In this document: piece by piece, positions 1 to 64,000 of the stretch
Numbering within the stretch: the first letter of the stretch is position 1
Layout: each line of letters begins with the position of its first letter
DNA from: Dysidea avara
Lineage: Eukaryota > Porifera > Demospongiae > Dictyoceratida > Dysideidae
Direction of reading: 5' to 3'
DNA: 64,000 nucleotides
Assembly: GCF_963678975.1 (NCBI RefSeq)
Contig: NC_089272.1
Location: 42,041,391 to 42,105,390, forward strand
Position numbers and translations under genes: made by a program
Notes under the pieces: model-generated
Told to the model about the DNA's origin: nothing
Database searches by the model: none
What the model saw: only the letters and a program-made list of their open reading frames with translations

Positions 1-747
1 GGTGATTTGTTTGCAGCTGAACTCTCAACAGAATGGTTTCTTTGTAGCTGAACTCTCTGCATGGTGGTTTCTTTTAGCTGATTGTTGTACAGGGTTCCTC
101 TACTAGGTGAGTTAATTGATTCAAGCTGAACTCCTTCTAGGGTAATTTGTTCATAGCTGAACTCTCTACAGGGTTATTTGGTTGTAGCTGAACTCTCTAC
201 AGGGTGACTTGTTTCTAGCTGAACTCCCTATGGGGTGATCTGTTGGTAGCTGAATTCTCTACAGGGTGATTTGTTTCTAGCTGAACTCTCTACAGGATGA
301 TCAGTTCACAGCTGAACCCTCTACAAGGTAGCTTCTTCTAGCTGATCTCTCTACAGTGTGATTTGTTTGTAGCTGAGCTCTTTTTGCAGGGTGATTTGTT
401 TGTAGCTTAACTCTCTACAAGGTGACATTTTCTAGCTGAGCTCTCTCTTGTTTCTAGCTGATCTCTCTACAGAGTAAATTGTTAGTAAAGCTGAACTCTT
501 TACAGGGTGGATTTTGGTTGTTAAACTCTCTGCCTGAAAACTTGTTTGTAGCAGAATTCTCTACAAAGTGAATTCTTTGTAACTGAACTCTCTACAGGCT
601 GCATGACTTATTGATAGTTGAACTTTCTTCAGTGTGACTTGTAATAATTATACAGCGATATATTTGTAGCTGAACTCTCTACAGGGTGATTTGCTTGTAG
701 CTGAACTATCTACAATATTAACTGGTTGCTGCTGAACTCCCTCAGCA
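1..747 (-). repeat. 31-bp minisatellite array of copy A
   Basis: Tandem units of about 30-31 bp with the core GTAGCTGAACTCTCTACAGG followed by GTGATTTGTTT. Roughly two dozen units, fairly diverged, with variants reading GATCTCTCTACA or CTTCTTCTAGCTG. The same unit fills the arrays at 17860-20745, 41470-44795 and 58453-63235. Confidence 0.9.
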
Positions 748-750
748 TAA

Positions 751-1107
751 GGCCAATGAAATTTGATTAGCAGTTCCGCGTCTTCGCCCGCATGCCTTTG
801 ATACACCCGCATGGAATTTCATTATTGGTATTTCAGATTGAAATACTCTAATAGAGCAGTCACTTTACTCTAATGGAGCAATCAGCTATACTGTAATGGA
901 AAAATCACTTGTTATATGGATTAGTAACGTACTTTAGCTATTTAATGCAAGAGTAATCAATGTAGATCTCACTTTTTTGGCAGAAATCTTCATGTTTGAG
1001 ATGTGTGTTGTGCTTTTGGAAAATAATGAATAATGAATAATAACCGCCCGCCCGCATCCAATTTTCAAAAATCTGAGCGAGAAACTGGTAATCAAGTTTC
1101 ATTGGCC
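751..1107. mobile_element. PIF/Harbinger-like MITE with 3-bp TSD
   Basis: Termini GGCCAATGAAATTTGATTA and the inverse TAATCAAGTTTCATTGGCC are imperfect TIRs. TAA flanks both sides (748-750 and 1108-1110), the TWA-type 3-bp TSD usual for PIF/Harbinger. Sub-terminal CGCCCGCAT motifs lie on both sides, as in the element at 6662-7268. No transposase is visible. It is inserted in the tail of minisatellite array A. Confidence 0.7.
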
Positions 1108-1962
1108 TAACTTACAATGTAATAGAAATCTATAATGGAGTAAGTCATGAGAACTAGCGGAATGTTCTATCGGGGTACCTGTTCTATTAGAGTATCTCGA
1201 TCTTGCATTTGCTACACGGAGTTGGCTTTCAAATCATAACTCAGTGGTTTGTAACCCGATTGTTCTGTACTACTGCAAGAACTTTTTACGATGAGTATTC
1301 CAGCTACATACCAATTTTCAGCTCATTGCTCTTAGCGGTTTTCCTGATGAGCGTGAAAATTATTGGTATTTTTATTCACGAATCTCGATTGTACAATTGT
1401 TACACACCTTCGGTTTCGTGTCATATCTCCATGATCTTTATTTCGATTGCTTTTAAACCACCAAAGGCACTCCTACAATGGATGATCTATCCACAAAATG
1501 ATTTTCAACTCATTCCGTGAAGTGGTTTACTCTGTAGGCGTGACAACAAATTGATCTTGTTTTACGCGAATAATTGGTCATAAAGCCTTAACCGTTCACC
1601 AAATTTGATAATAGTATTCACCTTTGGACTCCCTTTCGGTGTGCCAAATTTCAAGGCGATCGGAGTACATGTTTGCGTTTTATAGCAAGTTTTGCAAGAG
1701 TGCGAAAATATGAAGAAGAATAAGAAGGAAAAAACGAAACTTTGGCTGCTCGTAACTCGGAAATGGCTTGAGCGATTTCTTTCAAATTTGGAATGTGGAC
1801 TCCCCTAGCTGGCGGGAAACTCTGCAGCATATTTGATTCCAATTGGATAAGGTATCACCGATATACAAAGGTGTAAAAATGACGTTTTCTTTCTTCCTGT
1901 CAATATACCCACGTTGTGGCGCGCCGTCTTCTTGGGCCGCATGACATACTGTCGTGTATGAG

Positions 1963-15977: not shown

Positions 15978-16715
15978 TCAATACACCTGCACGGTAGTGT
16001 GTCGTGCGGCCAAGAAGCCAGCACGCAACACCCGCACGTATATTGACAGGAAGAAAGAAAACGCGATTTTCACACTTCCGTAGCTCTGTGTTGCCCCTAC
16101 GAAACAAGACAAATTTTGCTGTGGACACGCCCGCAAACTTCAGTACTCCACATACCAAATTTGAGCGAACTGAATCTCTTCAAGCGTTCCCGAGATATGT
16201 GACTTTCAAAAATTGGCTTAGTTTCTTCGGGTTTTTTTTCTTCCTCTTTTCGCACACTTACAAAAACTGTCACAAAACGCGAACGCCATATCCGATTGCC
16301 TTGAAATTTGGCACACAGAGGGGGTATAAAGGCGCATCATGGTACCAAGTTTGGCTGAATATTTTTATTATTTCGGCACTAATGGCACTCCCATCCTCCC
16401 TGATCTCTAGCTAGAACTTAAAACTAATTTAATTTATATAAAAGACAAAAAGCAGCTAAACCTACAGAGCCTACACAGGCCTACAAAAACACCGCATGGA
16501 CCGCCAGCATACACACAGCAAAACCCCCTGACAGGGGCCTTAAATACGATGAGCAGTGAAGGTGTTAATAGCGATTATTCACGAAAAATAACACTAATAT
16601 CAGATCTGTGGTCGCATGTTAGTCCGAGGATTCACTTTTCTGTTGTACACATTCATCATAATCATGATGGTCTTCTCTCTCTTGTCACGCCTACAGGGTA
16701 AACCGCTGTCACAGT
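15978..16715 (+). mobile_element. Composite element head fragment (copy E)
   Basis: Begins TCAATACACCTGCACGGTAG and follows head C (40629 onward) through TATATTGACAGGAAGAAAG and TCCGATTGCCTTGAAATTTG to about 16352. After ~190 bp of unrelated sequence, homology resumes at 16558 (ATTATTCACGAAAAATAACA). It ends with CACGCCTACAGGGTAAACCG at 16686. No minisatellite follows. It lies immediately upstream of the intact retSat gene. Confidence 0.75.
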
Positions 16716-17033
16716 GATATGTGTTTTCCCGAGTTTCGTGTTTCCCTGCACACATAACCCTAGGGATCCATGTTTCCCCGCACACATATCACTAGGGATG
16801 CGTGTTTCTCCGACAAAGGCGCTAGTGATATATGTTTCCCTGCCAGTTTCTCAGTTTTCTTATGGCTACCACCGCGTTTATATACTTTCTGCTGCTGATA
16901 AGACTAGCTAGCTATACTGCTATATTGCTGGGCTTAGCTAATACTGCTACTGCTCACATATCACAGTACTAATATACTGCTGCTACTGTAACTACTTCAC
17001 TGCTTACTGACTCTACAGCTACTAGCTATAATA
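16716..17033. repeat. Short imperfect repeats between heads E and B
   Basis: Three imperfect ~40-45-bp repeats (CGTGTTTCCCTGCACACATA, ATGTTTCCCCGCACACATAT, GCGTGTTTCTCC) at 16735-16855, then CTACTGCT-rich sequence to 17033. No gene seen. Confidence 0.5.
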
Positions 17034-17815
17034 TCAAGACACACGATATGTCGTGCGGCCCAAGAAGCCGGCGCGCCACACTGTGGGTATATTGACAGGA
17101 AAAAGAAAACGTAATATTCACACCTTTGTATCTCGGTAATCCCTTATCCGATTGGAACCAAATTTGTTACAGTGTTTCCCGCCACCCAGGGGAGTCTATA
17201 TTCCAAATTTGAAGGAAATCGTTCCAGCCATTTCCGCGATACGAACTGGCAAAGTTTCAATTTTTTCTTCTTCGTGCATGTTTTCGCACACTTGCAAAAA
17301 TAATTATTGCTATAAAACGCAAACGCGTACTCCGATCGCCTTGAAAGTTGGTACACAGAAAGGAAATCCAAAGGCGAATCCTAGTATCAAATTTGGTGCA
17401 AATCCAATGAATGGTTCAGAAATTATGACCGATTATTCGCGTAAAACAAGATCGATTTGTTGTCACGCCTACAGGGTAAACCGCTTCGTGGAATGAGTTG
17501 AAAATTGCTATGTAGATGGAGTAACCATCGTAGGAGTGATTTTTGGTGGTTTGAAGAGAATCGAGATAAAGACCATGGAGATATGACACAAAATCCGACC
17601 TGTGTCACAATTACGAGATCGATTTTTATGAATAAAAAAGTATTAGTTTTTTCCACGCCTACTAGGAAAACCGCTTAGAGCAATGAGCTGAAAATCGGTG
17701 TATAGCTGGAATAATCTTCATAGAAAGTACTTACAGTAGTACAGAAGAATCGGATTACAAATCACTGAGTTATCGTACGAATTCGGAAAGCCAACTCCGT
17801 GAATAGCAAATGCGA

Positions 17816-17860
17816 GATCGAGATACTCTAATAGAACAGTCACCCTAATAGAGCATTCAG
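17816..17860 (+). repeat. Hinge motif of copy B
   Basis: GAGATCGAGATACTCTAATA continues as GAACAGTCACCCTAATAGAG. This joins the head to the array in copies A-D and recurs elsewhere in the window. CTCTAATAGAG is a palindrome apart from its central base. Confidence 0.85.
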
Positions 17861-20745
17861 CTAATTTATTTACTCTATTGTAGAATTCTATTACATTGCA
17901 ACTTATTCTGTAGGGAGTTCAGCTGCAAACAGTAAATCTTATAGACAGTTCCGCAAGAAGCAAGTCACCTTATAGAGAGTTCAGCTACAATTCAGCCTAC
18001 AAATATATCATTGTAGTGATCCAGAACATTACAAGTCACACTGAAGAGAATTCAGCAATAAACAAGTCATGCACCCTGTAGAGTTCGACTACACTCTCTA
18101 GAAAATTCAGCTACAAGCAAGTCACTGTGGAGAGTGTTCAGCTACAAAGAAACTACCCTGTAGAGAGCTCATCTATACAAACAAGTTACCCTATAGAGAT
18201 CGGCTGCAAACAAGTAGCCTTGTAGAGAGTTCAGCTACAGACAAGTCACTTAATAGTTTATACAATGTTCAGCTACAAGTAAGTCACTTTGAAGAGAATT
18301 CAGGTCACTCTGTACAGAAGTTTGCTACAAACAAGTCACCGTGTAGAGAGTTCAGCAACCAAAAAACCACCCTGTAAAGAGTTCAGATTTACAAACAAGT
18401 TACTCTGTAGAGAGATCAGCTAGAAACAAGAAGAGAGAGCTCAGCTAGAAGAAGTCACCTTGTCGAAATCTCAGCTGCAAAGAAACCCTGTAGAGAAATC
18501 AACTACAAACAAATCACCCTGCTGAGCGTTCAACTATAAACAAATCAGCCTGTAGAAAGTTCAGGTACAAACAAATCACCATATATAGAGTTCAGCTACA
18601 AAAAATCACTTTGTAGAGAGTTCAGCTACAAAGAAACCATCCTGTAAAGAGTTCAGCTACAAACAAGTTACTCTACAGTGAGATCAGTTTGAAACAAGAG
18701 ATTTCAACTACAAACAAATCACCCTGTAGAGAGTTTAGGTATGAACAGATCACCTTGTAGAGAGTTCAGCTATCAAGTCACCCTATACAGAGATTAGCTA
18801 GAAGCAAGTCACCTTGTAGAGAGCTCAGCTACAAAGAAACCATCTTGTAGAGAGTTCAGCTACAAACAAATCACCATGTAGAGAGTTCAGCTAGATAAAA
18901 GTCACCCTACAGAGACATCGGGTCATCCTATACAGAGATCAGCTAGAAGAAAGTCATGCACCTTGTAGAGGGTTCAGCTACAAAGAACCCAATCTGTAGA
19001 GAGTTCAGCTAGAAACAAGTTACCCTATAGAGAGATCAGCTAGAAACAAGTCACCCTGTAGAGATTTCAGCTACAAACAGATCACCCTGTAGATAGTTCA
19101 GCTAGATACAAATCATCTTGTAGAGAGATCAGCTAGAGGAAGCCACCTTGTAGAGAGATCAGCTAGAAACAAGTCACCTTGTAGAGATTTCAGTGACAAA
19201 GAAACCATCCTGTAGAGAGTTCAGCCACAAGCAAATCACCCTGTAGAGAGTTCAGTTACAAACAAATCACCCTGTAGAGAGTTCAGCTACAAACAAATCA
19301 ACCTGTAGAGAGATCAACTCGAGGAAGTCACCTTGTAGAGAGATCAGCTAGAAACAGATTACTGTGTAGAGAGTTCAGTTACAAAAACATCACCCTGTAG
19401 AGAGATCAGCTACTGTAGAAACACATCACCCTGTAGAGAGTTCAGCTACAAACAAATCACCTTGTAGAGAGTTAAGCTACAAACAAATTAGATACCCTGT
19501 AGAGAAATCAGCTACAAACAAATCACCTTGTAGAGAGTTCACTTACAAATAAATCTACCTGTAGAGATATCAGTTACAAACAAATCACCCATTGTAGAGA
19601 GATCAGATCACCCTGTATAGAGTTCAGCTACAAACAAATGACCCTGTAGAAAGTCCAGGTATTAAAAAGTCATCCTGTACAGCGTTGAAACCGGGTCGGG
19701 TCATCAGGGTCATCCGGGTCACATTTTCTCAGGGTCATCCGGGTCTGACCCGGTTTACAATTTATCCGGGTCTGACCCGGATTTGGATCACGTGAGAAAC
19801 GAAATTGTTCGTTTGACGACGTGGAAACTTATAAACGCTATCGCGTAGCTCTTTCGTGAGCCACGCCCACTTATCGCATTACCAACATACGCTCAGCCAC
19901 GCTCATTTGTTAGTAAGTGTAGTATGTAGCACGAAATTGAGGGTATCTATGGTGAGGGGTAGCTATTGTCAGTAGGTGAAGACCCTTTTTTTTTTTTTTT
20001 CTTTCTTTTTTTTGGTCTTCAACCTACAGCCAGGCTGAAGTTGCAATATTTACTCAACACGAATCGAACGCTCAAAATGTAGACTCGTTCGCTCGCTCGA
20101 GACTATCTGAAACGCGTCTCGGCTTTAATTAATCCTGGTCACATCCGGGTCAGCAGTAGTGACCCGGTTTCAACGTTGATCCTGTAGATAGTTTTGATAC
20201 AAACAAATCACCCTATAGAGAGATCAGCTAGATGAAGTCACCTTGTAAAGAGAACAGCTACAAAGAACCCACTCTGTAGAGAGTTCGGTTAGAAACAAGC
20301 TACCCAATAGAGTGATCAGCTAGAAACAAGTCATCCTGTAGAGAATTCAGCTACAAACAAATTACCCTGTAGAGATTTCAGGTACAAACAGATCATCCTG
20401 TAAATAGTTCAGTTATAGGTACAAGTCACCATGTAGTAGGAGAAGTCACCTTGTAGAGAGATCAGCTGAAACAAGTCACCTTGTAGAGACCAGCTACAAA
20501 GAAACCATCCTGTAGAGAGTTCAGCTACAAACAAGTCACTCTGTAGAGAGTTCAGCTACAAGCAAATCAGGAGTTCAGGTACAAACAAATCACCCTGTAA
20601 AGAGATAAGCTAGAAACAATTCACCCTCTAGAGAGAATCATGTGTAGAGTTCAGCTACAAGCAAATCACCCTGTAGAGAGTTCAGCTACATTTCAAGTCC
20701 CTTAGTAAAGAGATCAGCTGTGAACAAGTTATCCAGTAGGGAATA
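17861..20745 (+). repeat. 31-bp minisatellite array of copy B
   Basis: Units follow the pattern GAGAGTTCAGCTACAAACAA then ATCACCCTGTA; about 75 units once the nested element is removed. Variants with GATCAGCTAGAA and AAGAAACCATC are interspersed. Each unit contains TGTAG and CTACA separated by nine bases, a potential small hairpin. Confidence 0.92.
19685..20173. mobile_element. Inverted-repeat element nested in array B
   Basis: TTGAAACCGGGTC at left and GACCCGGTTTCAA at right are inverted. CG flanks both sides (possible 2-bp TSD). The interior has several CCGGGTC/GACCCGG repeats and a GAAGACC-T-tract-GGTCTTC hairpin (19971-20022). Minisatellite units resume on both sides. No ORF. Confidence 0.65.
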
Positions 20746-20767
20746 ATAGAAATGTAATAAATATATG

Positions 20768-21276
20768 CAGTGTAGGGAGTAATGGGTTAAGTAACGCGTT
20801 ACATAATATTTACTTTTGTGGTACGTAACTAAGTAATATAACGCAATACGCTATAAAAACAGGTAATATAACTCAAGTTACTTTACTTACAAATGTAACG
20901 CGTTACCTAAGTAATATAGTTACTGTAACGAATCTAATATTATTACTACAAGTAACGAAGTTACTAATCTCGTTAGTTATCCACTGAGTAACGCCTAGCC
21001 ACAACGAAGTAGTGAAGCCTACTGAATGAAGCTTATTCACCAGCTTCTTACTTATAACCAAGATTTGCACATTGTCTAACAACACAATCATGTCACGTGA
21101 TAAAGTGGTAGTTTCACACGTGATAGCTTAAAGCTGTGGACACAGTAATATAATACGTAATATTATTATAGTTACTTTATTTTATGGGTAATATGTAACT
21201 GTAACTAAATAGTTCAGTTGCAAGTAATATGTAATATGTAACTAGTTACTTTTACAAAGTAACTTGCCCAACACTG
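20768..21276. mobile_element. hAT-superfamily MITE with 8-bp TSD
   Basis: Ends CAGTGTAGGG and CCCAACACTG, with sub-terminal GTAACGCGTTAC and AACTAGTTAC blocks typical of a widespread animal hAT MITE group. AATATATG is duplicated exactly (20760-20767, 21277-21284). It is inserted between the array and the tail of composite copy B. Confidence 0.88.
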
Positions 21277-21489
21277 AATATATGTATATAATTTGTATAA
21301 TATTACTGATAAAATCAAAAACAAAAACAGGTGAAAGTATTAAAAATCTGCTTTGTCTGTTTATTCTTCCTGTGGTAAAGAAAAAGGATAGGTTAAAAAA
21401 GCCTCAAAGTCAGCCTATGGCCGGCTTTGGGGTATGCAAATGCAAAAAGAAGTGATATCTAATCTACCTGGGACTAATTTGACCAAAAC

Positions 21490-22179: not shown

Positions 22180-22236
22180 GTAATCTCTCACAAAGTTACA
22201 TGCTTACCATGTAACTTTGTGAGAGATTATGTGAGT
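22180..22236. repeat. Perfect hairpin at the left edge of unit 1
   Basis: TAATCTCTCACAAAGTTACATG and its inverse are separated by five bases. Only the right arm exists in unit 2 (36367), so the hairpin formed or was lost after duplication. Confidence 0.8.
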
Positions 22237-22659
22237 AACATCAGCTATCATTTCTCGTGATTTTGAAGGACACAATTGCTCAAACATTGGCTGGAAAGAA
22301 AAGTGTACAAGGATGTTATCATATCAAAATTGTATTATAACAATTGAAATTGGCATGATGGCATGACAAAAAGTTGTATATCCACACAGGAAGTAAACTG
22401 ATCACCAACTGATTTGCATGCATATTATTGAAAAATGTAACTACATAGAAAGTTTGATCAACACCAATTAAAAAGATCACTTAATTGCGTAATGCATTAC
22501 TGCCACTATTCGTAAACCACAATGAATACATGATTATGTACACCAATTTTGAAGTTATGGAAATGATTATAGACAAAATGATTACATGTTAATGTCAGCT
22601 GTTATACACTATAGTTTGAGGGAGTTCAGGCGTCAGATTATATCCACATGTCGTTTATA

Positions 22660-24790
22660 TAATTAACCCTCAATTAGTAGTTTCTGTAGTTGCACACTAC
22701 AATTAGCCAAGGTCATCATTGTTCAGTTATTCAATATGGTAAAATGGTTATGTCACTTCTAATCCAGTGGAGCCTGCCTTATAATCTACATAAAATCATC
22801 AGTTAAACTGTTCATTGCAATAATCCCACGATATATGCTGCATGTCTGTTTACATTAATTTAATTTTACTGACTAATGTAACCATGTACCTTCTTCAGTG
22901 TATTGGTTCACAAATGACCTGCCTATTGATAGGATATTTGGTCCTAAGGTAACTGGTCTGGTCCAGGAGTGAACCCATTTTGTATGTGATGAACTAGGGG
23001 CAGTGGAGCAGGCCAAAAAGTGAGGGGGAAAAAAAGGTAACCATATATGCTGACAATAGCTGTCTGCATTCTCCTTTTTAAGTTTCCAATAGTCAAATAG
23101 GACTTCTAATACAGGAAAATTGGAAAATTTAAACTCCAGATTAACTCTAAAGTTTACACAACAGGCAAAGCTTAAGTTTTCAATCAAGTTATTGTACAAC
23201 CCTTCAAGGCAGTTTTATGTTCTGCCAGTATTTGCTTAAGCTTGTATTCCAAATTATTATGTAGATGCTTCATCATCATAGCCATCAACATTATCTTCAC
23301 AAAAAGCTAATGCAAGTCATGATTACTCCCAAAGGCAAACAGTGTGTGTGACTACACAACATCATTCTTTACCAGGCCAATGCATTTTATAGCAAGGTGA
23401 ATGTTTTAAATTGCACAGCCCATCTTTATATTGGGTATACAATTCCTAACAGCTGGCATTAACTATATATCCAATGACTTTAATCGATGCATACAAATTT
23501 TCCTTTTTCCCATCAACCATCAAAATGTAACCAACTCCCTGCTGATGTAATCAATTCCTCTACCCCTAAAGAGTTTTGTAATAACATGAATAACTTTATG
23601 ATCACACCTGTGCGTTATAATCTTCTGATTACTGCACAGTAATAAATATAATATAATAATAATATAATCTTCAATACACAATTGCATAGTTGACTCATAG
23701 TTGTGTAAACATTGTGCAAATGTGGTTTCCATATTTAGGATTGCGGTAAATTTGTGGGAATTATCAAACTATCACATGTCTAGCTGCCATACCCAAAACT
23801 TCAGCTGTGAAATGACTGCCTTAAAAACACAAGTACTTATTAAGCATGACACACAACACACAATTATGTTATGTAGTAGTTAAAGGTCACCTTACATGAG
23901 TACTAATTTTGTTGATCAGATCAAGTGTATAAATTTTACTCCAATGCAACCACAGTGAACATAACCATGTAAACATGTTATGTGTGTCTACAATGGAAAA
24001 AATATGACAATTTGCAGTTCCAGGAATTATAATATTATATAGCCTTGAAATATGAAACTGAAAGTGGTTTATACATGGAATAGCTCCTGTAAACTTTGTT
24101 TACATAAGGGGAATTATTAAAAGTATTAGAAAAGTTTGCTTAGTCATCTACTCAGAACTGACAGTTAGTTTAACTGTGTATACACTTGTATAAGCTATTG
24201 TTCCTGCTATGTAACTATGGCAATGATTAGACAAAATAACGATTTACTGTGCAATTCTTAATATAATGACATGTGTGTAATTAACCCTCGATTAGTAGTT
24301 TCTGTAGTTGCACACTACACTTAAGGTTATCACTACTCAGTTATTCAATATAGTGAAATGGTTATGTCACTTCTAATCCAGTGGAGCTTGCCTAATAATC
24401 TACATAAAGTCATCAGTTAAGCTGATCATTGCAATAATCCCATGATATATGCTGTCTGTTTATTTTACTGACTATTGTAACCACCTGTTTTAGTGTTTCA
24501 TAGTGCATGCAGTAAACTATTTATCTGTTATTCCTCAAGTTGAGTGTCATTGGTTCACAAATGACCTGCCTATTGATAGGGTGAACCCATTTTAGTTATG
24601 TCCACCTAAAAACAATAGAGATCAATATATAGATTTAGTGGAAACTACAGTAAATGAATACTTACTGATAAAATATGCACTAAACACAATTTTCACTGCA
24701 CTACATTCTCTTTGTCAAGTTTCCAATAGTCACAAGTAGGACTTCTAATACAGGAAAATTTAATCTCCTGATTAACTCTAAATGCATTGT
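22660..24790 (+). repeat. Internal direct duplication within the X half
   Basis: About 460 bp (22660-23130: AATTAACCCT..TTAGTAGTTTCTGTAGTTGC) recurs at 24280-24790. The same pair occurs in unit 2 (36840-37310 and 38455-38960), so the internal duplication is older than the unit duplication. Between the copies is a LINE tail (23470-23660). Confidence 0.75.
23470..23660 (+). pseudogene. LINE 3'-end fragment
   Basis: Reads NQLPADVINSSTPKEFCNN, a WNxLP-type LINE C terminus. The unit-2 copy (37660-37830) reads QWNQLPADGINSSTPNEFCN. Followed by TAATATAATAATAATA sequence. Confidence 0.6.
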
Positions 24791-25022
24791 GGTAAATGTG
24801 TATACAGTTCATAGAAATGATCTAGTCAAAAATTTAGTACTTAATAGACAACCTTTAGCTACTAATATATGTGATTCGAAATTGTATTCTGTGTGTCATT
24901 CTTTACTAAGTTAAGTACTTGTGTTTTAAGGCAGTCCTTTCACAGCTGAAGTTTTGAGCATGGAAACTAATAACTAAGAAAGCCAATAATGTAAAATACT
25001 TTTTACAACGTAATATAAGCAA

Positions 25023-40525: not shown

Positions 40526-41469
40526 GAAATATGGCAATACTTAATTCAGGTACACAATTACCATTGAAAATGCTCTCAAATTCAATCTTGTATTGTTCAA
40601 ATTTCAAAATTTTCTACTTTCAACATTATCAAGACACACGGTAGTGTGTCGTGCGGCCCAAGAAGCCGGCGTGCAACCCCGTGAGTATATTGACAGGAAG
40701 AAAGAAAACGCAATTTTCGCACCTCCGTAGCTCTGTGCTGCCTTGATGAAACAAGACAAATTTTGCTGTGTACATTCCGTCCAACTTCAGTACTCCACAT
40801 TCCAAATTTGAGCGAAATCGCTTCGGGCATTCCTGAGATATGCGACTTCAAAAATTGGCTTAGTTTCTTCGTTTTTTTTTCTTCTTATTTTTCTTCCTCT
40901 TTTCGCACACTTACAAAAACTGCTATAAAACGCGAACGCGTTATCCGATTGCTTTGAAATTTGGCACACAGAAGGGGGTATAAAGGCGCATCTCTGTACC
41001 AACTTTGGCTGGAATACCATAAACAGGCAAAGAGTTATGAGCAATTATGCACGAAAAATAACACCAATATGTTGTCACGCCTACAGGGTAAACCGAGTAT
41101 GGGAAGAAGCTGAAAATCGGTGGGTGAATAGGTTAACTATTGAACCTCAAACCTTTTGTGGTTTGAAAGAAATCGAGCTAAAAACCAGGAAGATACAGCG
41201 AAGAAATCAACAGTGTGTAACAATTACGCAATCGAGATTAGCTAATTTTTATTATTATTATTATTATTATTATGCTTGCCACGCCTACCAGATAAACCAC
41301 TTGGGGTAATGCTTTGAAAATCGCTGTACAGATGGAGTTATCATCTTAGAAAGGCTCTTCAATGCTGTAGAAAAATCAGACTTAAAGCCACGGAGTTACA
41401 ACACGAAATCCAACTTGGTGTAGCAAGTGCGAGATCGAGATACTCTAATAGAGCAGTCATCCTAATAGA

Positions 41470-44400
41470 GCAGTCACCCTGAACAGAATTCAAAAGATCA
41501 GTTAGAAATAAGTAACCTGTATAGAGATCAGCTACAAACAAATCACCCTGTAGAGAGTTCAGCTACAAACAATTCACCCTGTTCAGACATCAGTTAGAAG
41601 AAGTTTTCTTGTAGAGAGTTCAGTTACAAACAAATCACCCTGTTGAAAGATCAGCTAGAAGATGTCACCTTATAGATAGTTCAGTTACAAAGAAACCACC
41701 ATGTAGAGAATTCAGCTACAAACTAGTGACTCTGTAGATACATCAGCTAGAAGAAGTTACCTTGTAGAGAGTTCAGCTACAAAGAAACCATTCTGTAAAG
41801 AGCTCAGCTGCAAACAAATCACCTATACAGAATTCAGCTACAAACAAATCACCCTGTAGAGAGATCAGCTAGAAGAAGTTACCTTGTAGATAGTTCAGCT
41901 ACAAACAAATCATCCTGTAGAGAGATCAGCTAGAAGAAGTTACCTTGTAGATAGTTCAGCTACAAACAAATCATCCTGTAGAGAGATCAGCTAGAAGAAG
42001 TTACCTTGTAGATAGTTCAGCTACAAACAATTCACCCTGTACAGAGCTCAGTTAAAAGAGGTTTCCTTGTAGAGAGTTCAGCTACAGACAAATCACCCTG
42101 TAGAGAGATCAGTTAGAAGAAGTTACCTTGTAGATCATTCAGCTACAAACAATTCACCCTGTAAAGAGATCAGCTAGAAGAAGTTACCTTGTAGAGAGTT
42201 CAGCTACAAAGAAACCATCATGTAGAGAATTCAGCCACAAACAAATCATGTATAGAGAGTTCAGCTACAAACAAATCTCCCTGTAGAGAGATCAGCTAGA
42301 AGAAGTTTCCTTGTAGAGAGTTCTGCTACAAACAAATCACCCTGTAGAAAGATCAGCTAGAAGAAATCACCTTGTAGAGAGTTCAGCTTCAAAGAAGCAA
42401 TCATGTGAGAGTTCAGGTACAAACAAATTGTCCTGTAGAGAAATCAGCTAGAAGAAGTTACCTTGTAGAGAGTTCAGCTACAAAGAAACCATCATGAAGA
42501 TAGTTCAGGTACAAACAAATCACCCTGTAGAAAGATCAGCTATAGAAGAAATCACCTTGTAGAGAGTTCAGCTACAAAGAAACTATCATGTAGAGAGTTC
42601 AACTACAAACAAATGACCCTGTAGAAAGATCAGCTATAGAAGAAATCACCTTGTAGAGAGTTCAGCTACAAAGAAACCATAATGTAGAGAGTTCAGCTAC
42701 AAATAAATCGGCCTGTAGAGAGATCAGCTAGAAGAAATTACCTTGTAGAGAGTTCAGCTACAAAGAAACCATCATGTAGAGAGTTCAGCTGCAAACAAAT
42801 CACCTGTAGAGAGTTAAGCTACAAACAAATCTCCCTGTAGAGAGATCAGCTAAAAGAAGTCACCTTGCAGGGAGTTCAGTTACAAAGAAATAAACCATGT
42901 AGAGAGTTCAGCTGCAAACAAATCACGTGTAGAGAGTTCAGCTAGAAACAAGTCACCCTGTAGAGAGATCAGCTAGAAAAAAGTCACCTTGTAGAGAGTT
43001 CAGCTAGAAGAAGTCACATTGTAGAGCTACAACGAAACTACCATGTAGAGTTCAGCTGCAAACAAATCACCCTGTAGAGAACTCAGCTACAAACAAATCG
43101 TCCTGTAGAAAGATTAGCTAGAAGAAGTTACCTTATAGGGAGTTCAGCTATGAACAGATCACCCTGTAGAGAGTTCAGCTACAAACAAATCACCCTGTAG
43201 AGAGTTCAGTTACAAAGAAACCACCATGTAGAGAGTTCAGCTGCAAAAAAAATCAATCACTCTGTTGAGAGTTCAGCTAGAAGAAGTCACCTTGTAGAGA
43301 GTTAAGCTGCAAATAAATCACCCTGTAGAGAATTCAGCTACAAACAAATCACCCTGTAGAAAGATCAGCTAGAAGAAGTTACCTTGTAGAGAGTTCAGCT
43401 GCAAACAAATCACCTATAGAGAGTTCAGCTAGAAACAAGTCACCCAGTAGAGAGTTCAGCTAGAAGAAGTCACATTGTAGAGAGTTCAGCTACAATGAAA
43501 CTCCCATGTAGAGAGTTCAGCTGCAAACAAATCACCCTGTAGAGAACTCAGCTACAAACAAATATGCAGTGTAAAAAGATCAGCTAGAAGAAGTTACCTT
43601 TTAGAGAGTTCAGCTACAACGAAACCACCATGTAGAGAGTTCAGCTAGAAAAAAATCACCTGTAGAGAGTTCAGCTAGAAACAAGTCACCCTGTAGAGAG
43701 ATCAGCTAGAAACAAGTCACCTTGTAGAGAGTTCAGCTAGAAGAAGTCACGTTGTAGAGAGTTCAGCTGCAAACAAATCACCCAGTAGAAAGTTCAGCTA
43801 TGAACAGATCACCCTGTTGAGAGTTCAGTTAGAAACAAGGAATCCTGTAGAGAGATCACCTAGAAGTATCGCCTTGTAGAGAGTTCAACTACAAACAAAT
43901 CACCCTGTAGAGAGATCAGCTAGAAGAAGTCACCTTGTAGAGAGTTCAGCTATAAAGAAACCACCATGTAGAGAATTCAGCTGCAAACAAACACCCTGTA
44001 GAGAACTCAGCTACAAACAAATCGCCCTGTAGAAAGATCAGCTAGAAGAAGTTACCTTGTAGGGATTTCAGCTACAAACAAATCACCCTGTAGAGAGTTC
44101 AGCTACAAAGAAACCATTCTGTAAAGGGCTCAGCTGCAAACAAATCACTTGTACAGAATTCAGCTACAAACAAATCACCCTGTAGAGAGATCAGCTAGAA
44201 GAAATTACCTTGTAGATAGTTCAGCTACAAACAAATCACCCTGTAGAAAGATCAGTTAGAAGAAGTTACCTTGGAGAAAGTTCAGCTACAAAGAAACCAT
44301 TTTGTAAAGAGCTCAGCTGTTAACAAATCACCTGTACAGAATTCAACTACGAACAAATCACCCTGTAGAGAGATCAGCTATAAGAAGTTACCTTGTAGAT

Positions 44401-44795
44401 AGTTCAGCTACAAACAAATCACCCTGTAGAGAGATCAGCTAGAAGAAATTACCTTGTAGAGAGTTCAGCTACAAAGAAACCACCATGTAGAGAGTTCAGC
44501 TGCAAAGAAATCACCCTGTAGAAAATTCTGCCACAAACAAATTGCCCTGTAGAAAGATCAGTTAGAAGAAGTTACCTTTTAGAGAGTTCAGCTACAAAGA
44601 AACCATTCTGTAAAGAGCTCAGCTGCAAACAAATCACCTATACAGAATTCAGCTACAAACACATCACCCTGTAGAGAGATCAGCTAGAAGAAGTTACCTT
44701 GTAGATCGTTCAGCTACAAACAATTCACCCTGTAGAGAGAGCAATTAGAAGAAGTCACCTTGTAGAGTGTTCAGTTACAAAGAAACCACCATGGA
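41470..44795 (+). repeat. 31-bp minisatellite array of copy C
   Basis: About 105 units with three recurring types: GTTCAGCTACAAACAAATCA, GATCAGCTAGAAGAAGTTAC and GTTCAGCTACAAAGAAACCA, each followed by a CCTGTAGAGA-like end. They often occur in ordered pairs or triplets, so there is higher-order periodicity. Confidence 0.93.
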
Positions 44796-44820
44796 GATTT
44801 CTGTAATCAATATAATATTA

Positions 44821-45059
44821 TGTGACCGGATTTGCGAAAAGGGGTCTTCCACACACATCCAATTCCGTAACCGTTGGAGACCATAACTCAGTGTTCAAGT
44901 AACATATTAACCTGAAAATTTCACCACGTATTCAGCTATAGTGGTGCTCACCACTGTCCAAAAGTCAAGGCAATAGCTCTTTCCAATCTGAAGTTATCAA
45001 TTGTCAAAGTTGGCAAATTGGATGTGTGTGGAAGACCCCTTTTCGCAAATCCGGTCACA
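44821..45059. mobile_element. TGTGACC-family MITE in composite C
   Basis: A 44-bp perfect TIR beginning TGTGACCGGATTTGCGAAAA; TA on both sides. 239 bp, non-coding. It marks the array end. Half of the same element is at 58341-58452 in copy D. Confidence 0.88.
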
Positions 45060-45214
45060 TATGTATTATACAGTATATATAATTTGTACATTTACTGATA
45101 AAATATTTAAAGTACATCTACTTCATTTTTTCTTCTTCCTGTAGTAAAGAAAAAACATAGGTTTAAAAAGTCCCAAAGCTGGCCTATGTATACAAATACA
45201 AAAAGAAATGAAAT

Positions 45215-45528
45215 CTAATCCAAAACAGCCAAGCTGTAAAAAGTGTGCGGCCCTCAGAAAGGCTATGGTGAAAAAAAGATGTGAAATCCAAGGTGGTGGC
45301 CAAGAAATGGCTGTGATAGTAGGTTAATTGTAAAAATTTTAATAATGACACTTTAGGTAAATTTTGTGAAGCGGCACAAAAATTCACCCGAATTGTCGTT
45401 ATTAAAATTTTTACCATTAACCTACCATCACAGCCATTTCTTGGCCGCCACCTTGGATTTCACATCTTTTTCACCATAGCCTTTCTGAGGGCCGCACACT
45501 TTTTTACAGCTTGGCTGTTTTGGATTAG
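45215..45528. repeat. 314-bp near-perfect palindrome
   Basis: CTAATCCAAAACAGCCAAGC pairs with its inverse at the far end. The arms are ~150 bp with few mismatches and the centre lies near 45371. A second copy is at 57861-58175. Open frames inside it are mirror images of each other and are not genes. Confidence 0.92.
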
Positions 45529-46385
45529 ATTATTCTAACATGCACCTATTCTTGGTTGTCCATACCTACCCAAACTTTTCCATTAGCAAAATGCTTCAGA
45601 GAGCCATACCTATAATCTAAAGGCAGTATATAAAATATCTACAGGCAGAAAGTATTAGGGATTTTATGTGGAAATGTCTCCAAATTGCAGTATTTTAGCA
45701 TCAATTTTTCAAAATTTTCCTTGGGGGGGGGCATGCCCCCAGACCCCCCTAGTTCCAGCATGCTTCGCATGCTGGGAAACACCTCTACCCAAGAGATTAG
45801 TACCTTGACTTAGCCCCCCCCTTTTATAAATCCTAGATCCGCCCCTGGTGATGGCCATTGTTACAGTAGATCTGCTAACATAGATGTAACACTACTGTTA
45901 TATCGGTAGTCCGACTTGACCCAACGAGCAGCACGTCGTTGTACCATTTCTATACTTTGTATCTCCTTCTGCAAGTAGGGGTCCCATACTGCCGATCCAT
46001 ACTCCAACAGTGGTCTCACTATACTGGTGTAGGCTAAACATTTAGTTTCTGCAGAACATCTATAAAAGACATGCACTATCCGGTGATAGAATCGCCATTG
46101 AATGAAGGCACAAACGTATAGCGCTTACTCATTTTCGTGCTGGTGACTAAAAAGCCGTGTTATTCCATATTACACATACCACAAACGCTTAATTAAGGCG
46201 GCCACGCCCTACACAAAACACAAAGGGAGTTCGCACAGCCAGTTGCACAAGACAAGGCTGAAGAGGAAGAAGATTAATAGCAGTATGTTTGTTTGTGCCG
46301 TTTATTCTTTTATATTCTTTAACCTGGCTTGCTAGGCTCTGGTTGGCTTGGCTGTCTGTAAATGTATTGTAAACAGCGTGGTATG

Positions 46386-57050: not shown

Positions 57051-57860
57051 TATGTATGCATATAGTGTGCACTCATCACTGTGCTATTTCCACACCACTG
57101 ATGAACCCCATTTGACTACCAATGACCTCTAGTTAATGCTGTGCTGTATATTAACTAGCTACATAGCTGAATATTTTCCATCTTCGGTGATACTGCCAAT
57201 AATGTATTTGCTGTATACAATACTACAACAATGTATAGCTCTCTCCTGTATGTTTTGTATGCATATACTGTGTACACATCACTGTGCCATTGCCACACCA
57301 ATAATGTACCAGCACTTACTGTAGCTACTGCGGTGGCATCTAGTTACGATGCCACTGTTGTGTTATATCTGTCACTATTGTGACAAAGGTTGATTTGGGA
57401 TCATGATTATTTTAATCGTGCCTTCACCACCTATTGTAAATGCATCACTTATGTTTATTGTATGTACTACTGTGTATATATGTGTATCTTTTCCACCCAC
57501 ACACACTGTGATGACCATGCATACACTGTTTTTACATGCCCTATTAGTAGATTGTCCCATTAGTGGGTGTACTTGGTTGTGTGTGGGCATTAATATTACT
57601 TTGTCTACTTATTGCAATAGTTGCACATTCCATTTGTTATAATTATTAGCTGTGTATATTTTGTGGAAATGTGGTTTCCATATTTAGAATTGTGATAACT
57701 TTAAATTAAGTTCGTGGAATTATTCAGCTATCACATGTCTATTATTATTATTATTATTATTATTTCTAGGCTCGGGGCACAGCTGTACCCAATATAAAGA
57801 CGAGTTGTGCAATTCAAACCATGTTGATGGCTATATTGATGAAGCAAAGTATATTATTAT

Positions 57861-58175
57861 CTAATCCAAAACAGCCAAGCTGTAAAAAAGTGTGCGGCCC
57901 TCAGAAAGGCTATGGTGAAAAAAAATGTGAAATCCAAGGTGGCGGCCAAGAAATGGCTGTGATGGTAGGTTAATGGTAAAAATTTTAATAATGACAATTC
58001 AGGTAAATTTTGTGAAGCGGCACAAAAATTCACCTGGATTGTCGTTATTAAAATTTTTACCATTAACCTACCATCACAGCCATTTCTTGGCCGCCACCTT
58101 GGATTTCACATCTTTTTTCACCATAGCCTTTCTGAGGGCCACACACTTTTTTACAGCTTGGCTGTTTTGGATTAG
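57861..58175. repeat. 315-bp palindrome, second copy
   Basis: The same sequence as 45215-45528, with small differences. The outer end touches unit-3 DNA directly and the inner end continues into the tail, so the palindrome behaves as the element's 3' terminus. Confidence 0.9.
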
Positions 58176-58452
58176 ATTTCATTTCTTTTTGTATTTGTAT
58201 ACCCCAAAGCCGGCCTATGGCCAGCTTTGGGACTTTTTTAACCTATGTTTTTTTTCTTTACTACAGGAAGAAGAAAAGATGAAGTAGATGTACTTTAAAT
58301 ATTTTATCAGTAAATGTACAAATTATATGTATAATACATATGTGACCGGATTTGCGAAAAGGGGCCTTCCACACACATTCAATTTGCCAACTTTGACAAT
58401 TGATAACTTCAGATTGGAAAGAGCTATTGCCTTGAAATTTGGGCAGTGGTGA

Positions 58453-61400
58453 TTTCTTTGCAGCTGAACTCTCTACAAGGTAATTTCTTCTAGCTGATCT
58501 CTCTACAGGGAGATTTGTTTGTAGCTGAACTATCTACAAGGTAACTTCTTCTAGCTGATCTCTCTACAGGGTGATTTGTTCGTAGCTGAATTCTGTACAG
58601 GTGATTTGTTTGCAGCTGAGCTCTTTACAAAATGGTTTCTATGTAGCTGAACTCTCTACAAAGTAACTTCTTCTAACTGATCTTTCTACAGGGTGATTTG
58701 TTTGTAGCTGAACTATTCTACAAGGTAATTTCTTCTAACTGATCTCTCTACAGGGTGATTTGTTTGTAGCTGAATTCTGTACAGGTGATTTGTTTGCAGC
58801 TGAGCTCTTTACAGATTGTTTCTTTGTAGCTGAACTCTCTACAAGGTAATTTCTTCTAGCTGATCTCTCTACAGGGAGATTTGTTTGTAGCTGAACTATC
58901 TACAAGGTAACTTCTTCTAGCTGATCTCTCTACAGGGTGATTTGTTTGTAGCTGAATTCTGTACAGGTGATTTGTTTGCAGCTGAGCTCTTTACAAAATA
59001 GTTTCTTTGTAGCTGAACTCTCTACAAAGTAACTTCTTCTAACTGATCTTTCTACAGGGCAATTTGTTTCTGGCAGAATTTTCTACAGGGTGATTTCTTT
59101 GCAGCTGAACTCTCTACATGGTGGTTTCTTTGTAGCTGAACTCTCTACAAGGTAATTTCTTCTAGCTGATCTCTCTACAAGGAGATTTGTTTGTAGCTGA
59201 ACTATCTACAAAGTAATTTCTTCTAGCTGATCTCTCTAGTGGGTGATTTGTTCGTAGCTGAATTCTGTACAGGTGATTTGTTTGCAGCTGAGCTCTTTAC
59301 AAAATGGTTTCTTTGTAGCTGAACTCTCTACAAGGTAACTTCTTCTAACTGATCTTTCTACAGGGCAATTTGTTTGTGGCAGAATTTTATACAGGGTGAT
59401 TTCTTTGCAGCTGAACTCTCTACATGGTGGTTTCTTTGTAGCTGAACTCTCTACAAGGTAACTTCTTCAAGCTGATCTCTCTACAGGGTGATTTGTTTGT
59501 AGCTGAACGATCTACAAGGTAACTTCTTCTAGCTGATCTCTCTACAGGGTGGTTTCTTTGTAGCTGAACTCTCTACAAGGTAACTTCTTCTAGCTGATCT
59601 CTCTACAGGGTGATTTGCTTGTAGCTGAACGATCTACAAGGTAACTTCTTCTAGCTGATCTCTCTACAGGGTGGTTTCTTTGTAGCTGAACTCTCTAAAA
59701 GGTAACTTCTTCTAACTGATCTTTCTACAGGGCAATTTTTTTGTGGCTGCATTTTCTACCGGGTGATTTCTTTGCAGCTGAACTCTCTACATGGTGGTTT
59801 CTTTGTAGCTGAACTCTCTACAAGGTAATTTCTTCTAGCTGATCTCTCTACAGGGAGATCTGTTTGTAGCTGAACTATCTACAAGGTAACTTCTTCTAAC
59901 TGATCTTTCTACAGGGCAATTTGTTTGTGGCAGAATTTATACAGGGTGATTTCTTTGCAGCTGAACTCTCTACATTGTGGTTTCTTTGTAGCTGAAATCT
60001 CTACAAGGTAACTTCTTCTAGTTGATCTCTCTACAGGGTGATTTGTTTGTAGCTGAACTCTCTACAAGGTAACTTCTTCTAGCTGATCTCTCTACAGGGT
60101 GATTTGTTTGTAGCTGAATTCTGTACAGGTGATTTGTTTGCAGCTGAGCTCTTTACAGAATGGTTTCGTAGCTGAACTCTCTAAAAGGTAACTTCTTCTA
60201 ACTGATCTTTCTACAGGGCAATTTGTTTGTGGATGAATTTTCTACAGGGTGATTTCTTTGCAACTGAACTCTCTACTTGGTGGTTTCTTTGTAGCTGAAC
60301 TATGTACAAGGTAATTTCTTCTAGCTGACCTCTCTACAGGGTGATTTGTTTGTAGCTGAATTCTGTACAGGTGATTTGTTTGCAGCTGAGCTCTAAACAG
60401 AATGGTTTGTTTGTAGCTGAACTCTCTACAAGGTAACTTTTCTAGCTGATGTCTCTACAAGGTGACTAGTTTGTAGCTGAAGTCTCTACATGGCAGTTTC
60501 TTTGTAACTGAACTTTCTACAAGGTGACTTCTTCTAGCTGATCTAACACAGGGTGATTTGTTTGTAGCTGAACTCTCTACAAGGTAACTTCTTCTAGCTG
60601 ATCTCTCTACAGGGTGATTTGTTCGTAGCTGAATTCTGTACAGGTGATTTGTTTGCAGCTGAGCTCTTTACAAAATGGTTTCTTTGTAGCTGAACTCTCT
60701 ACAAAGTAACTTCTTCTAACTGATCTTTCTACAGGGCAATTTGTTTCTGGCAGAATTTTCTACAGGGTGATTTCTTTGCAGCTGAACTCTCTACATGGTG
60801 GTTTCTTTGTAGCTGAACTCTCTACAAGGTAATTTCTTCCAGCTGATCTCTCTACAGGGAGATTTGTTTGTAGCTGAACTATCTACAAGGTAACTTCTTC
60901 TATCTGATCTCTCTACAGGGTGATTTGCTTGTAGCTGAACGATCTACAAGGTAACTTCTTCTAGCTGATCTCTCTACAGGGTGGTTTCTTTGTAGCTGAA
61001 CTTTCTAAAAGGTAACTTCTTCTAACTGATCTTTCTACAGGGCAATTTGTTTGTGGCTGCATTTTCTACCGGGTGATTTCTTTGCAGCTGAACTCTCTAC
61101 ATGGTGGTTTCTTTGTAGCTGAACTCTCTACAAGGTAATTTCTTCTAGCTGATCTCTCTACAGGGAGATCTGTTTGTAGCTGAACTATCTACAAGGTAAC
61201 TTCTTCTAACTGATCTTTCTACAGGGCAATTTGTTTGTGGCAGAATTTATACAGGGTGATTTCTTTGCAGCTGAACTCTCTACATTGTGGTTTCTTTGTA
61301 GCTGAAATCTCTACAAGGTAACTTCTTCTAGTTGATCTCTCTACAGGGTGATTTGTTTGTAGCTGAACTCTCTACAAGGTAACTTCTTCTAGCTGATCTC

Positions 61401-63235
61401 TCTACAGTGTGATTTGTTTGTAGCTGAATTCTGTACAGGTGATTTGTTTGCAGCTGAGCTCTTTACAGAATGGTTTTGTAGCTGAACTCTCTAAAAGGTA
61501 ACTTCTTCTAACTGATCTTTCTACAGGGCAATTTGTTTGTGGATGAATTTTCTACAGAGTGATTTCTTTGCAACTGAACTCTCTTCTTGGTGGTTTCTTT
61601 GTAGCTGAACTATGTACAAGGTAATTTCTTCTAGCTGACCTCTCTACAGGGTGATTTCTTTGTAGCTGAATTCTGTACAGGTGATTTGTTTGCAGCTGAG
61701 CTCTAAACAGAATGGTTTGTTTGTAGCTGAACTCTCTACAAGGTAACTTTTCTAGCTGATGTCTCTACAAGGTGACTAGTTTGTAGCTGAAGTCTCTACA
61801 TGGCAGTTTCTTTGTAACTGAACTTTCTACAAGGTGACTTCTTCTAGCTGATCTAACACAGGGTGATTTGTTTGTAGCTGAACTCTCTACAAGGTAACTT
61901 CTTCTAGCTGATCTCTCTACAGGGTGATTTGTTCGTAGCTGAATTCTGTACAGGTGATTTGTTTGCAGCTGAGCTCTTTACAAAATGGTTTCTTTGTAGC
62001 TGAACTCTCTACAAAGTAACTTCTTCTAACTGATCTTTCTACAGGGCAATTTGTTTCTGGCAGAATTTTCTACAGGGTGATTTCTTTGCAGCTGAACTCT
62101 CTACATGGTGGTTTCTTTGTAGCTGAACTCTCTACAAGGTAATTTCTTCTAGCTGATCTCTCTACAGGGAGATTTGTTTGTAGCTGAACTATCTACAAGG
62201 TAACTTCTTCTAGCTGATCTCTCTACAGGGTGATTTGTTTGTAGCTGAATTCTGTACAGGTGATTTGTTTGCAGCTGAGCTCTAAACAGAATGGTTTGTT
62301 TGTAACTGAACTCTCTACAAGGTAACTTTTCTAGCTGATGTCTCTACAAGGTGACTAGTTTGTAGCTGAACTCTCTACATGGTGGTTTCTTTGTAACTGA
62401 ACTTTCTACAAGGTGACTTCTTCTAGCTGATCTAACACAGGGTGATTTGTTTGTAGCTGAACTCTCTACAAGGTAACTTCTTCTAGCTGATCTCTCTACA
62501 GGGAGATTTGTTTGAAGCTGAACTCTCTAAATGATGGTTTCTTTGTAGCTGAACTCTCTACAAGTTAACTTCTTCTAGCTGATCTCTCTACAGGGTGATT
62601 TGCTTGTAGTTGAACTATCTACAAGATAACTTCTTCTAGCTGATCTCTCTACATGGTGATTTGTTTGTAGCTGAATTCTGTATAAGTGATTTGTTTGCAG
62701 CTGAGCTCTTTAAATAATGGTTTCTTTGTAGCTGAACTCTCTCAATGTAACTTCTTCTAGCTGATGCTTTTACAGGGTCACTAGTTTGTAGCTGAATTCT
62801 CTACATGGTGGTTTCTTTGTAACTGAACTCTCTACAAGGTGACCTGTTCTAGCTGATCTTTCTACAGGGTGATTTGTTTGAAGCTGAACTCTCTACAAGG
62901 TAACTTCTTCTAGCTGATCTCTCTACAGGGAGATTTGTTTGTAGCTGAACTCTCTATATGATGGTTTCTTTGTAGCTGAACTCTCTACAAGGTAACTTCT
63001 TCTATTGATCTCTCCACAGGGCGATTTGTTTGTAGCTGAACTCTCTACATGGTGGTTTCTTTGTAGCTGAACTCTACAAGGTTATTTTTTCTAGCTGAAT
63101 TATCTCTTTCCATAGTTGCATGAACTCCCTACAAGGTAACTTCTTCTAGCTGATCTCTCTACAGGGTGACTTGTGTGTAGCTGATCTCTATACAGGTTTC
63201 TTATTTCTAGCTGATCTCTTGAATTCTCTTCAGGG
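58453..63235 (-). repeat. 31-bp minisatellite array of copy D, with 1,310-bp higher-order repeat
   Basis: About 150 units. Types recur in order: TTTGTTTGTAGCTGAA, ACTTCTTCTAGCTGATCTC, GGTTTCTTTGTAGCTGAAC, TTTGTTTGCAGCTGAGCTC. A block from about 59585 to 60894 repeats almost exactly at 60895-62204; distinctive variants such as ATCTAACACAGGG (60541, 61851) and TTGTGGCAGAATTTAT are spaced exactly 1,310 bp apart. Confidence 0.93.
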
Positions 63236-64000
63236 TGACTGCTCTATTAGGATGACTGCTCTATTAGAGTATCTCGATCTCGCACTTGCTGCACTAAGTT
63301 GGATTTCGTGTTATAACTCCGTGGCTTTAAGTCTGATTCTTCTACACCATTGATGAGCCTTTCTAAGATGATTACTCCATCTGTACAACGATTTTGAAAG
63401 CATTACCCCAAGCGGTTTATCTGGTAGGCGTGGCAAGCAGTCGTCTTTTTTTTATTAGCTAATCTCGATTTCGTAATTGTTACACACTGTTGGTTTTTTC
63501 GTTGTATCTTCCTGTTTTTTAGCTCGATTTCTTCCAAACCACAAAAGGTTTGAGGTTCAATAGTTAACCTATTCACCCACCGATTTTCAGCTTCTTCCCA
63601 TACGCGGTTTACCCTGTAGGCGTGACAACATATTGGTGTTATTTTTCGTGAATAATCGCTCATAACTCTTTGCCTGTTTATCGTATTCCAGCCAAAGTTG
63701 GTACTGGGATGCGCCTTTATATCCCCCTTCTGTGTGCTAAATTTCAAGGCAATCGGATATGGCGTTCGAGTTTTATAGCAGTTTTTGTAAGTGTGCGACA
63801 AGAAAAAGAAAAATAAGAAGAAGAAAAAAAACGAAGAAACTGAGCCAATTTTTGAAGTCGCATATCTCGGGAACGCGCTAAGCGATTTCGCTCAAATTTG
63901 GAATGTGGAGTGCTACAGTTGGAGGGCATGTCCACAGCAAAAATCGTCTTGTTTCATCAAGGAAGCACAGAGCTACGGAGGTGCGAAAATTGCTTTTCTT
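63236..64000 (-). repeat. Hinge and head of copy D
   Basis: On the minus strand the head ends GCGAGATCGAGATACTCTAA, then TAGAGCAGTCATCCTAATAG. Nearly identical to head C except for small indels. Frames inside differ between copies, so it is non-coding. Confidence 0.8.

Follow-up and report, generated by a model that had tools for sequence, protein, structure and literature searches.

A probable Helitron-like repeat family with a long terminal palindrome in the sponge Dysidea avara

Helitrons such as Helraiser and Helibat start with TC, insert between A and T without target duplication and carry a 3' hairpin as their end signal, a 19-bp palindrome lying 11 nt from the end; the available text of the two sources also describes precise head-to-tail junctions in Helraiser circles and tandem arrays of Helitrons (PMC4778049, PMC5876387). 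A second group, the HINE elements (DINE-1, and Cg_HINE of oyster), has two conserved modules around a satellite-like array, a subterminal inverted repeat and a 3' palindrome, again without target duplication, according to the accessible part of its description (PMC7492417). The replication intermediates of Helitrons are still poorly known. In the rolling hairpin of parvoviruses the terminal hairpin occurs in two orientations, and self-primed copying is expected to give tail-to-tail dimers that share one palindrome; parvovirus initiators and the Helitron Rep protein both belong to the HUH class. Here we describe a repeat family of the sponge Dysidea avara, met in a 64-kb stretch of contig 1 (NC_089272.1, 42.04-42.11 Mb; hereafter the window) of a genome of 550.8 Mb in 108 contigs. 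Its elements consist of a head, a hinge, an array of 31-bp units and a tail, followed by a terminal palindrome of ~320 bp that is a new type of 3' end.

Ends, insertion site and abundance

The initial annotation of the window had let these elements end at CTAA^TC (^ marks a boundary). This end is rejected: copies C and E of the window and 37 of 39 other copies run on through a palindrome, which is ~320 bp long in 35 of the latter and shortened in two (L027, L035), and no empty site of copy B at CTAA was present in the sequences compared. CTAA thus marks where the palindrome begins, ~320 bp before the true end. The two exceptions, L031 and L040, are broken off inside the palindrome. Similarity between copies stops at GATTAGAT, or at GAGTAGAT in L054, and the 3' end reads GATTAGA^T in 36 of the 37 palindrome-ended copies and GAGTAGA^T in L054. 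The base following GATTAGA is T in 37/37, a count that is partly by construction because the end-finding motif (at most 4 errors) includes that T. At the 5' end, the A^TC start reported for copies B and C was borne out (positions 17034 and 40629, both A^TCAAGACACACG), and the base preceding TC is A in 36/37 copies; the copies were picked by a word starting with TC, leaving the A^TC step as the independent evidence for this end.

The elements insert precisely between an A and a T, and no target duplication is visible. When joined, the flanks of L020, L026 and L038 align across A^T with relatives whose sequence is uninterrupted (five matches, with two relatives each for L026 and L038), and a repeat nested in copy B (20776-21275) is such an uninterrupted relative of the L026 and L038 sites. 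For L019 the empty site is approximate, with small AT-rich differences; L023 and L039 were excluded, since the sequences matching them were their own tandem neighbours. The clean empty sites anticipated at the boundaries exist at A^T; among the sequences compared none was found at the CTAA of copy B. A 2-bp AT duplication would yield the identical empty-site picture; we prefer the Helitron-type reading because of the junction data given below.

The tail carries a hairpin of CCCAAAGC/GCTTTGGG type, with a 13-bp stem ~350 nt inside the end, and at the true end there is neither CTRR nor the canonical short hairpin ~11 nt from the terminus. The initial annotation had remarked that the hairpin stands unusually far from the end, an impression that arose because the terminal palindrome had not been assigned to the element; the true end lies ~320 bp past CTAA. 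A subterminal inverted repeat, GTGCGGCCC, lies 22 nt from the 5' end and ~33 nt from the 3' end and reaches at least 9 bp in 30/35 copies (for L039, 16 of 2,000 shuffles gave one equally long). Near the 5' end a hairpin, GACACAC-GRTA-GTGTGTC, is intact in 35/39 copies, and its stem is not built from the 9-bp subterminal repeat. By analogy with Helraiser 3' ends, as covered in the available text of PMC4778049, CTAA may be the ancestral terminus and the palindrome a gain by read-through.

The family is abundant. Its head word has 9,873 exact matches genome-wide (82 for the reversed word), its tail word 6,347 with at most one mismatch (control 0) and the end of the palindrome arm 20,396 with at most one mismatch (control 0), the last fitting two per element. 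In the first 6.1 Mb of contig 1, a correctly oriented head lies within 6 kb upstream of 39/51 tails and within 9 kb of 42/51; at the same two distances a wrong-strand head is found for 2 and 3 of these tails, and a same-strand head downstream for 7 and 7. On contig 1 a palindrome follows within 6 kb downstream of 39/53 heads and lies within 6 kb upstream of 6/53. The copies studied here are 39 of the 42 head-tail pairs of that 6.1-Mb region, together with one headless tail. Measured from the head to roughly where the terminal region stops, these 39 copies and copy C are 2.1-8.5 kb long (median 4.7 kb), and the array holds between 16 and 175 counted unit anchors in the 39 copies, C and E. As in HINEs, conserved modules flank the central tandem array. 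Multiplying 9,873 heads by the median of 4.7 kb, with or without the 14/53 heads that lack a downstream palindrome, puts the family very roughly at 34-46 Mb of the genome, which may be an overestimate, as copies with both ends were selected for the measurement.

In many copies the head contains an open frame of ~140-200 amino acids from around position 66, and one composite head frame of 157 amino acids had no Pfam match. Copy L036 contains opposite-strand open frames of 596 and 327 amino acids, which are probably a nested insertion; the longer one resembles a reverse transcriptase by eye.

Palindrome flips, candidate dimers and concatemers

As single-stranded DNA, the tail hairpin and palindrome of copy E (57859-58250) fold with -194 kcal/mol, whereas 100 shuffles average -44 (z -37.7). 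The centre of the palindrome falls into three classes, each present in a forward (F) and a reverse (R) orientation: F/R counts are 8/6 for class I, 1/10 for class II and 7/5 for class III among 37 copies (35 fetched copies, C and E). Class I is represented in both orientations by window copies C and E. Across the whole genome, counts anchored on the tail gave 746 F and 712 R centres of class I, and 875 F and 1,575 R for classes II and III together; the reversed-pattern controls gave 0 in both cases. Both orientations of the terminal hairpin are thus present, as in a rolling hairpin, and arm mismatches near the centre swap along with it, as between the C and E types. A tree built from head and tail only (37 copies) requires at least five orientation changes and seven class changes, to which head-tail recombination may add noise (long branches of L036 and L023; L043 beside L023).

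The two arms of a copy resemble each other more than the arms of different copies do, with mean differences between left and right arms of 5.8 positions within a copy and 9.8 between copies. Non-consensus cells shared by both arms of one copy number 72, whereas 2,000 shuffles, in which right arms were redealt among copies of one class, gave 30 on average and never more than 52; single-copy cases of such sharing are L041, L052, L024 and L047. The pair L046 and L047 provides a recent example. The two differ by 4 indel events, not located, that total 164 bases. Over ~4.9 kb outside the palindrome there are 11 substitutions, and inside it seven differences. Four of these invert the centre, two stand at exactly symmetric arm positions (4963 and 5132 around 5047.5), and one erases the only mismatch between the arms of L046, so that the arms of L047 match throughout.

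We also considered the palindrome as an independent inverted-repeat element that happens to lie beside the tail. This was rejected, since the exact tail anchor is absent at 4/47 palindrome-like places of the sequences compared; three of these are fragments of 59-121 bp located close to or at the margin of a locus, and the fourth, in L039, is a shortened palindrome preceded by a tail that lacks one A. In the first 3.8 Mb, 17/63 palindrome places have neither a tail word within 700 bp nor an inward head within 6 kb, at least two of them matching a looser tail anchor, and the rejection of solo palindromes is therefore incomplete.

One palindrome between two tails was found at 37 places, a lower bound because the pattern allowed no mismatch in either anchor. 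Such a tail-palindrome-tail arrangement is expected when a folded 3' end primes its own extension. One of these places (C8:16238453) terminates on its right in a head, and a further head (C8:16240526) is 11 bp away. Joins of two tails with two palindromes number 18, never with gap 0, and head-to-head joins number 12, in two cases with gap 0. At C9:6583132-6583465, two tail-to-tail joins 300 bp apart form palindromes in series.

Tail-to-head junctions with a gap of 0-30 bp are more numerous (245), and the gap is 0 in 53 of the 100 listed. Five exact junctions follow one another within 25 kb of contig 3 (35.130-35.155 Mb), so that the family forms exact head-to-tail multimers as Helitrons do. 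Since A^T is its own reverse complement, elements inserting into existing ends would be expected to produce inverted and tandem joins equally often. The near absence of exact inverted joins points to multimer formation as the probable source of most exact tandems, and such concatemers would fit rolling-circle copying. Among the same 100 listed junctions, a second peak of gaps lies at 8-10 bp (25 junctions); the printed spacers are TA-rich, for example TATATATA, and possibly reflect read-through of the end into AT-rich flank before joining. At junction C1:20483513-20483548, GATTAGA is separated from the following head by 17 nt that repeat, in reverse complement, the tail sequence immediately preceding the palindrome. 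Such a trace is what one would expect if a brief fold-back copy became joined to a head, and a truncated dimer would have the same appearance. Other tail-to-head junctions, those with gaps of 18-19 bp, could be of the same kind.

Proposed fold-back copying and competing explanations

We consider it reasonably probable that the family is a non-autonomous, Helitron-like rolling-circle element whose terminal palindrome is copied by fold-back. We file it as functioning like a Helitron, and as Helitron-like of unsettled branch. The initial annotation had suggested a non-autonomous Helitron or Helentron with an internal minisatellite; the core of this stands (A^T insertion, head-to-tail junctions, no Rep similarity, a 9-bp subterminal inverted repeat), and what is missing is CTRR and the short hairpin ~11 nt before the actual terminus, as is the TT insertion reported for the oyster HINE. 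In the mechanism we envisage, a Helitron Rep/helicase supplied in trans would nick the TC end and peel off one strand, with the long 3' palindrome serving as the end signal. The palindrome would fold back on the single strand, where its 3' end might sometimes prime copying, or one arm might be recopied from the other. Such fold-back copying would flip the centre and equalise the arms, and copying that continued into the tail would produce a tail-palindrome-tail dimer; the array would move as passenger DNA. A bolder version, which we regard as doubtful at present, is that a rolling-circle transposon evolved a parvovirus-like terminal hairpin whose self-primed fold-back flips the centre, homogenises the arms and yields dimers that insert, thereby uniting two replication modes in one element.

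As in the initial annotation, no Rep-helicase was found in the elements: the 39 copies have no similarity to the Rep frames of L001-L015, which are the best-scoring Rep matches only. Helitron Reps are plentiful in the genome, with 150 scored matches in several score groups, and the Rep frame of L012 additionally carries an OTU protease and a PIF1 helicase. Two candidate partners were rejected. L008 and L014 belong to a Helitron whose end, CTAG^T with a short hairpin, is unlike that of the family, and the head found beside the Rep of L015 reflects a Helitron of the L008/L014 group that inserted into a family copy, its 3' end lying inside the head. The L008/L014 Helitron itself is ~6.4 kb long and present in ~99% identical copies (L056+L008+L057 and L058+L014+L059) ending CACGTAGGGCAGGTAACAATGCTAG^T; an inner segment of 385 bp is inverted between the two.

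Several points weigh against this account as a whole, the lack of a CTRR end among them. The 39 copies were chosen by exact head and tail words, a bias toward intact, young copies, and subgroups inside the three classes may account for part of the shared arm changes. Like orientations group together on the tree and classes II and III are not 1:1, and flips are therefore occasional rather than a part of every jump. The putative dimers are known by position alone, and a deletion between convergent neighbours through their palindromes would give the same structure. Chromosomal processes also flip and equalise palindromes. Finally, an autonomous relative sharing the termini, which the initial annotation had proposed to look for, was not found, the ends compared being those of the L008/L014 Rep group.

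Alternatively, the family might be an ordinary non-autonomous Helitron with a captured or duplicated palindrome, flipped and equalised after insertion by template switching or recombination, with tail-tail places left by deletion between convergent neighbours. Template switching at imperfect palindromes is a well-established source of mutation in which arms are corrected and spacers inverted, the clustering of orientation on the tree agrees with it, and ~10,000 copies in 551 Mb imply many convergent neighbours, by estimate some tens less than 1 kb apart. We nevertheless think this account unlikely, though a serious contender: centre orientation is ~1:1 over 1,458 class I copies, the flip and arm changes of L046 and L047 stand beside just 11 other substitutions, and no exact double-palindrome tail-tail join was found, compared with 37 single-palindrome places under a stringent pattern. 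Long palindromes can also cause fold-back read artefacts, and false inversions or inverted dimers derived from hairpins could in principle have entered the assembly. This is very improbable: individual copies sit in differing flanks, empty sites exist, each orientation is found in many hundreds of copies, private changes are common to both arms, and the putative dimer at C8:16238453 ends in a head near another head.

The remaining alternatives concern the kind of transposon. The family could be a HINE, that is, a non-autonomous Helentron form, a question of branch that is compatible with a fold-back step. The order of parts (5' block, array, 3' block, 3' palindrome) is that of Cg_HINE of oyster in the available text of PMC7492417, and the 5' hairpin and subterminal inverted repeat point the same way, whereas insertion at A^T rather than TT and a palindrome that is terminal and ~320 bp rather than short do not; we hold this placement as a tentative possibility. 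A cut-and-paste element running from CAAGAC to GATTAG with a 2-bp AT target duplication would leave the same empty site at any single insertion. Its ends, however, are not terminal inverted repeats of each other, the subterminal match being just 9 bp, and exact head-to-tail concatemers free of inverted joins would be unexpected, making this explanation quite improbable.

In a family of ~10,000 copies, the element's end records its copying in centre orientation, arm differences, dimers and concatemers, and strand events of rolling-circle transposition become readable from the genome. If fold-back copying is true, it would link Helitron and parvovirus-type replication. The family is also a large-scale instance of a satellite-like array spread by a mobile element.

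The window and comparison with known systems

The five loci of the window had been assigned one shared architecture. Tandem Repeats Finder (TRF) places 31-bp arrays in copies A, B, C and E, which together with the tail hairpin upholds this in part; copy D is a head fragment only, and copy A is diverged and cut by the window edge. We read copy B as a 3'-damaged copy, because just the first 8 bases of the palindrome (ATCTAATC, 21457-21464) are present and the rest is missing.

Table 1. Family features in the window (positions within the window) and the termini of the element
Feature	Positions	Strand	Remarks
Element termini			5' TCAAGACACACG, 3' GGATTAGA^T
Copy A	1..1961	-	diverged head (starts TCATACACGACA), hinge, inserted stretch, array start; cut by window edge
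Copy D	15978..16706	+	head fragment only (TCAATACACC...); another repeat interrupts at ~16707
Head, copy B	17034..17830	+	starts A^TC; A^TCAAGACACACG
Hinge, copy B	17815..17859	+	ATACTCTAATAGAACAGTCACC type; by eye
31-bp array part 1, copy B	17900..19686	+	
Unrelated repeat nested in copy B array	19687..20180		CCGGGTCA-rich ends; by eye
31-bp array part 2, copy B	20181..20760	+	array resumes at 20181
Nested TAACGCGTTAC-type repeat, copy B	20776..21275		between array and tail
Tail, copy B	21276..21464	+	hairpin ~21400-21431
Copy C	40629..45530	+	head, array (41495-44797), tail, terminal palindrome; to T after GATTAGA
Terminal palindrome, copy C	45213..45530	+	~318 bp; centre GTGAAGCGGCAC, orientation R
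Copy E	57859..64000	-	head cut by window edge; palindrome at end
Terminal palindrome, copy E	57859..58177	-	~318 bp; centre GTGCCGCTTCAC, orientation F, reverse complement of copy C centre

The repeat that interrupts the head of copy D (TGTCACAGTGATATRTGTTTCCC..., ~32-bp tandem unit; window ~16707-16830) also interrupts the palindrome of L031 (~3420-3640), and stands directly after CCGC in both. Away from the family, a hinge-like motif (ACTCTAATAGAGCAGTC) occurs at window positions 31495, 35690, 50489 and 55778. The window further contains a pair of 3.5-kb repeats outside the family (22198-25666 and 36367-39860, 92% identical), and other long repeat pairs are present.

We found no description of a comparable palindromic 3' end in the titles and abstracts listed from open-licence PubMed Central literature. 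The canonical Helitron of the same genome (L008, L014) is likened to the family through the Helitron_like_N Rep family and the rolling-circle class, and differs in its CACGTAGGGCAGGTAACAATGCTAG^T ends and short hairpin; among the matches listed, those of L008 and L014 to the family head or tail are 27-63 bp long and lie outside the Helitron. With Helraiser and Helibat, as far as the available text of the sources extends, the family shares the TC start, A^T insertion without target duplication, head-to-tail junctions, tandem arrays and a 3' hairpin, in the family a putative end signal (PMC4778049, PMC5876387). In contrast to these Helitrons it ends GATTAGA and not CTRR, has a terminal palindrome of ~320 bp in place of one of 19 bp set 11 nt from the end, and shows flipped centres, candidate tail-to-tail dimers and no Rep similarity in its copies.

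The likeness to HINEs lies in the two modules around the array, the subterminal inverted repeat, the 3' palindrome and the lack of target duplication. HINEs also have a 5' complementary repeat, to which the 5' hairpin of the family, with a stem not made from the same 9 bp, may correspond, and the oyster HINE inserts at TT or T-rich sites, unlike the A^T of the family (PMC7492417). The family differs from HINEs also in the size of its palindrome, which forms the very end, and in an array of up to 175 counted unit anchors. Like parvoviruses the family has a terminal hairpin in two orientations, and the places with one palindrome between two tails are candidates for tail-to-tail dimers; it differs in having a long hairpin at one end only and is known here from genome-resident copies rather than from replication intermediates.

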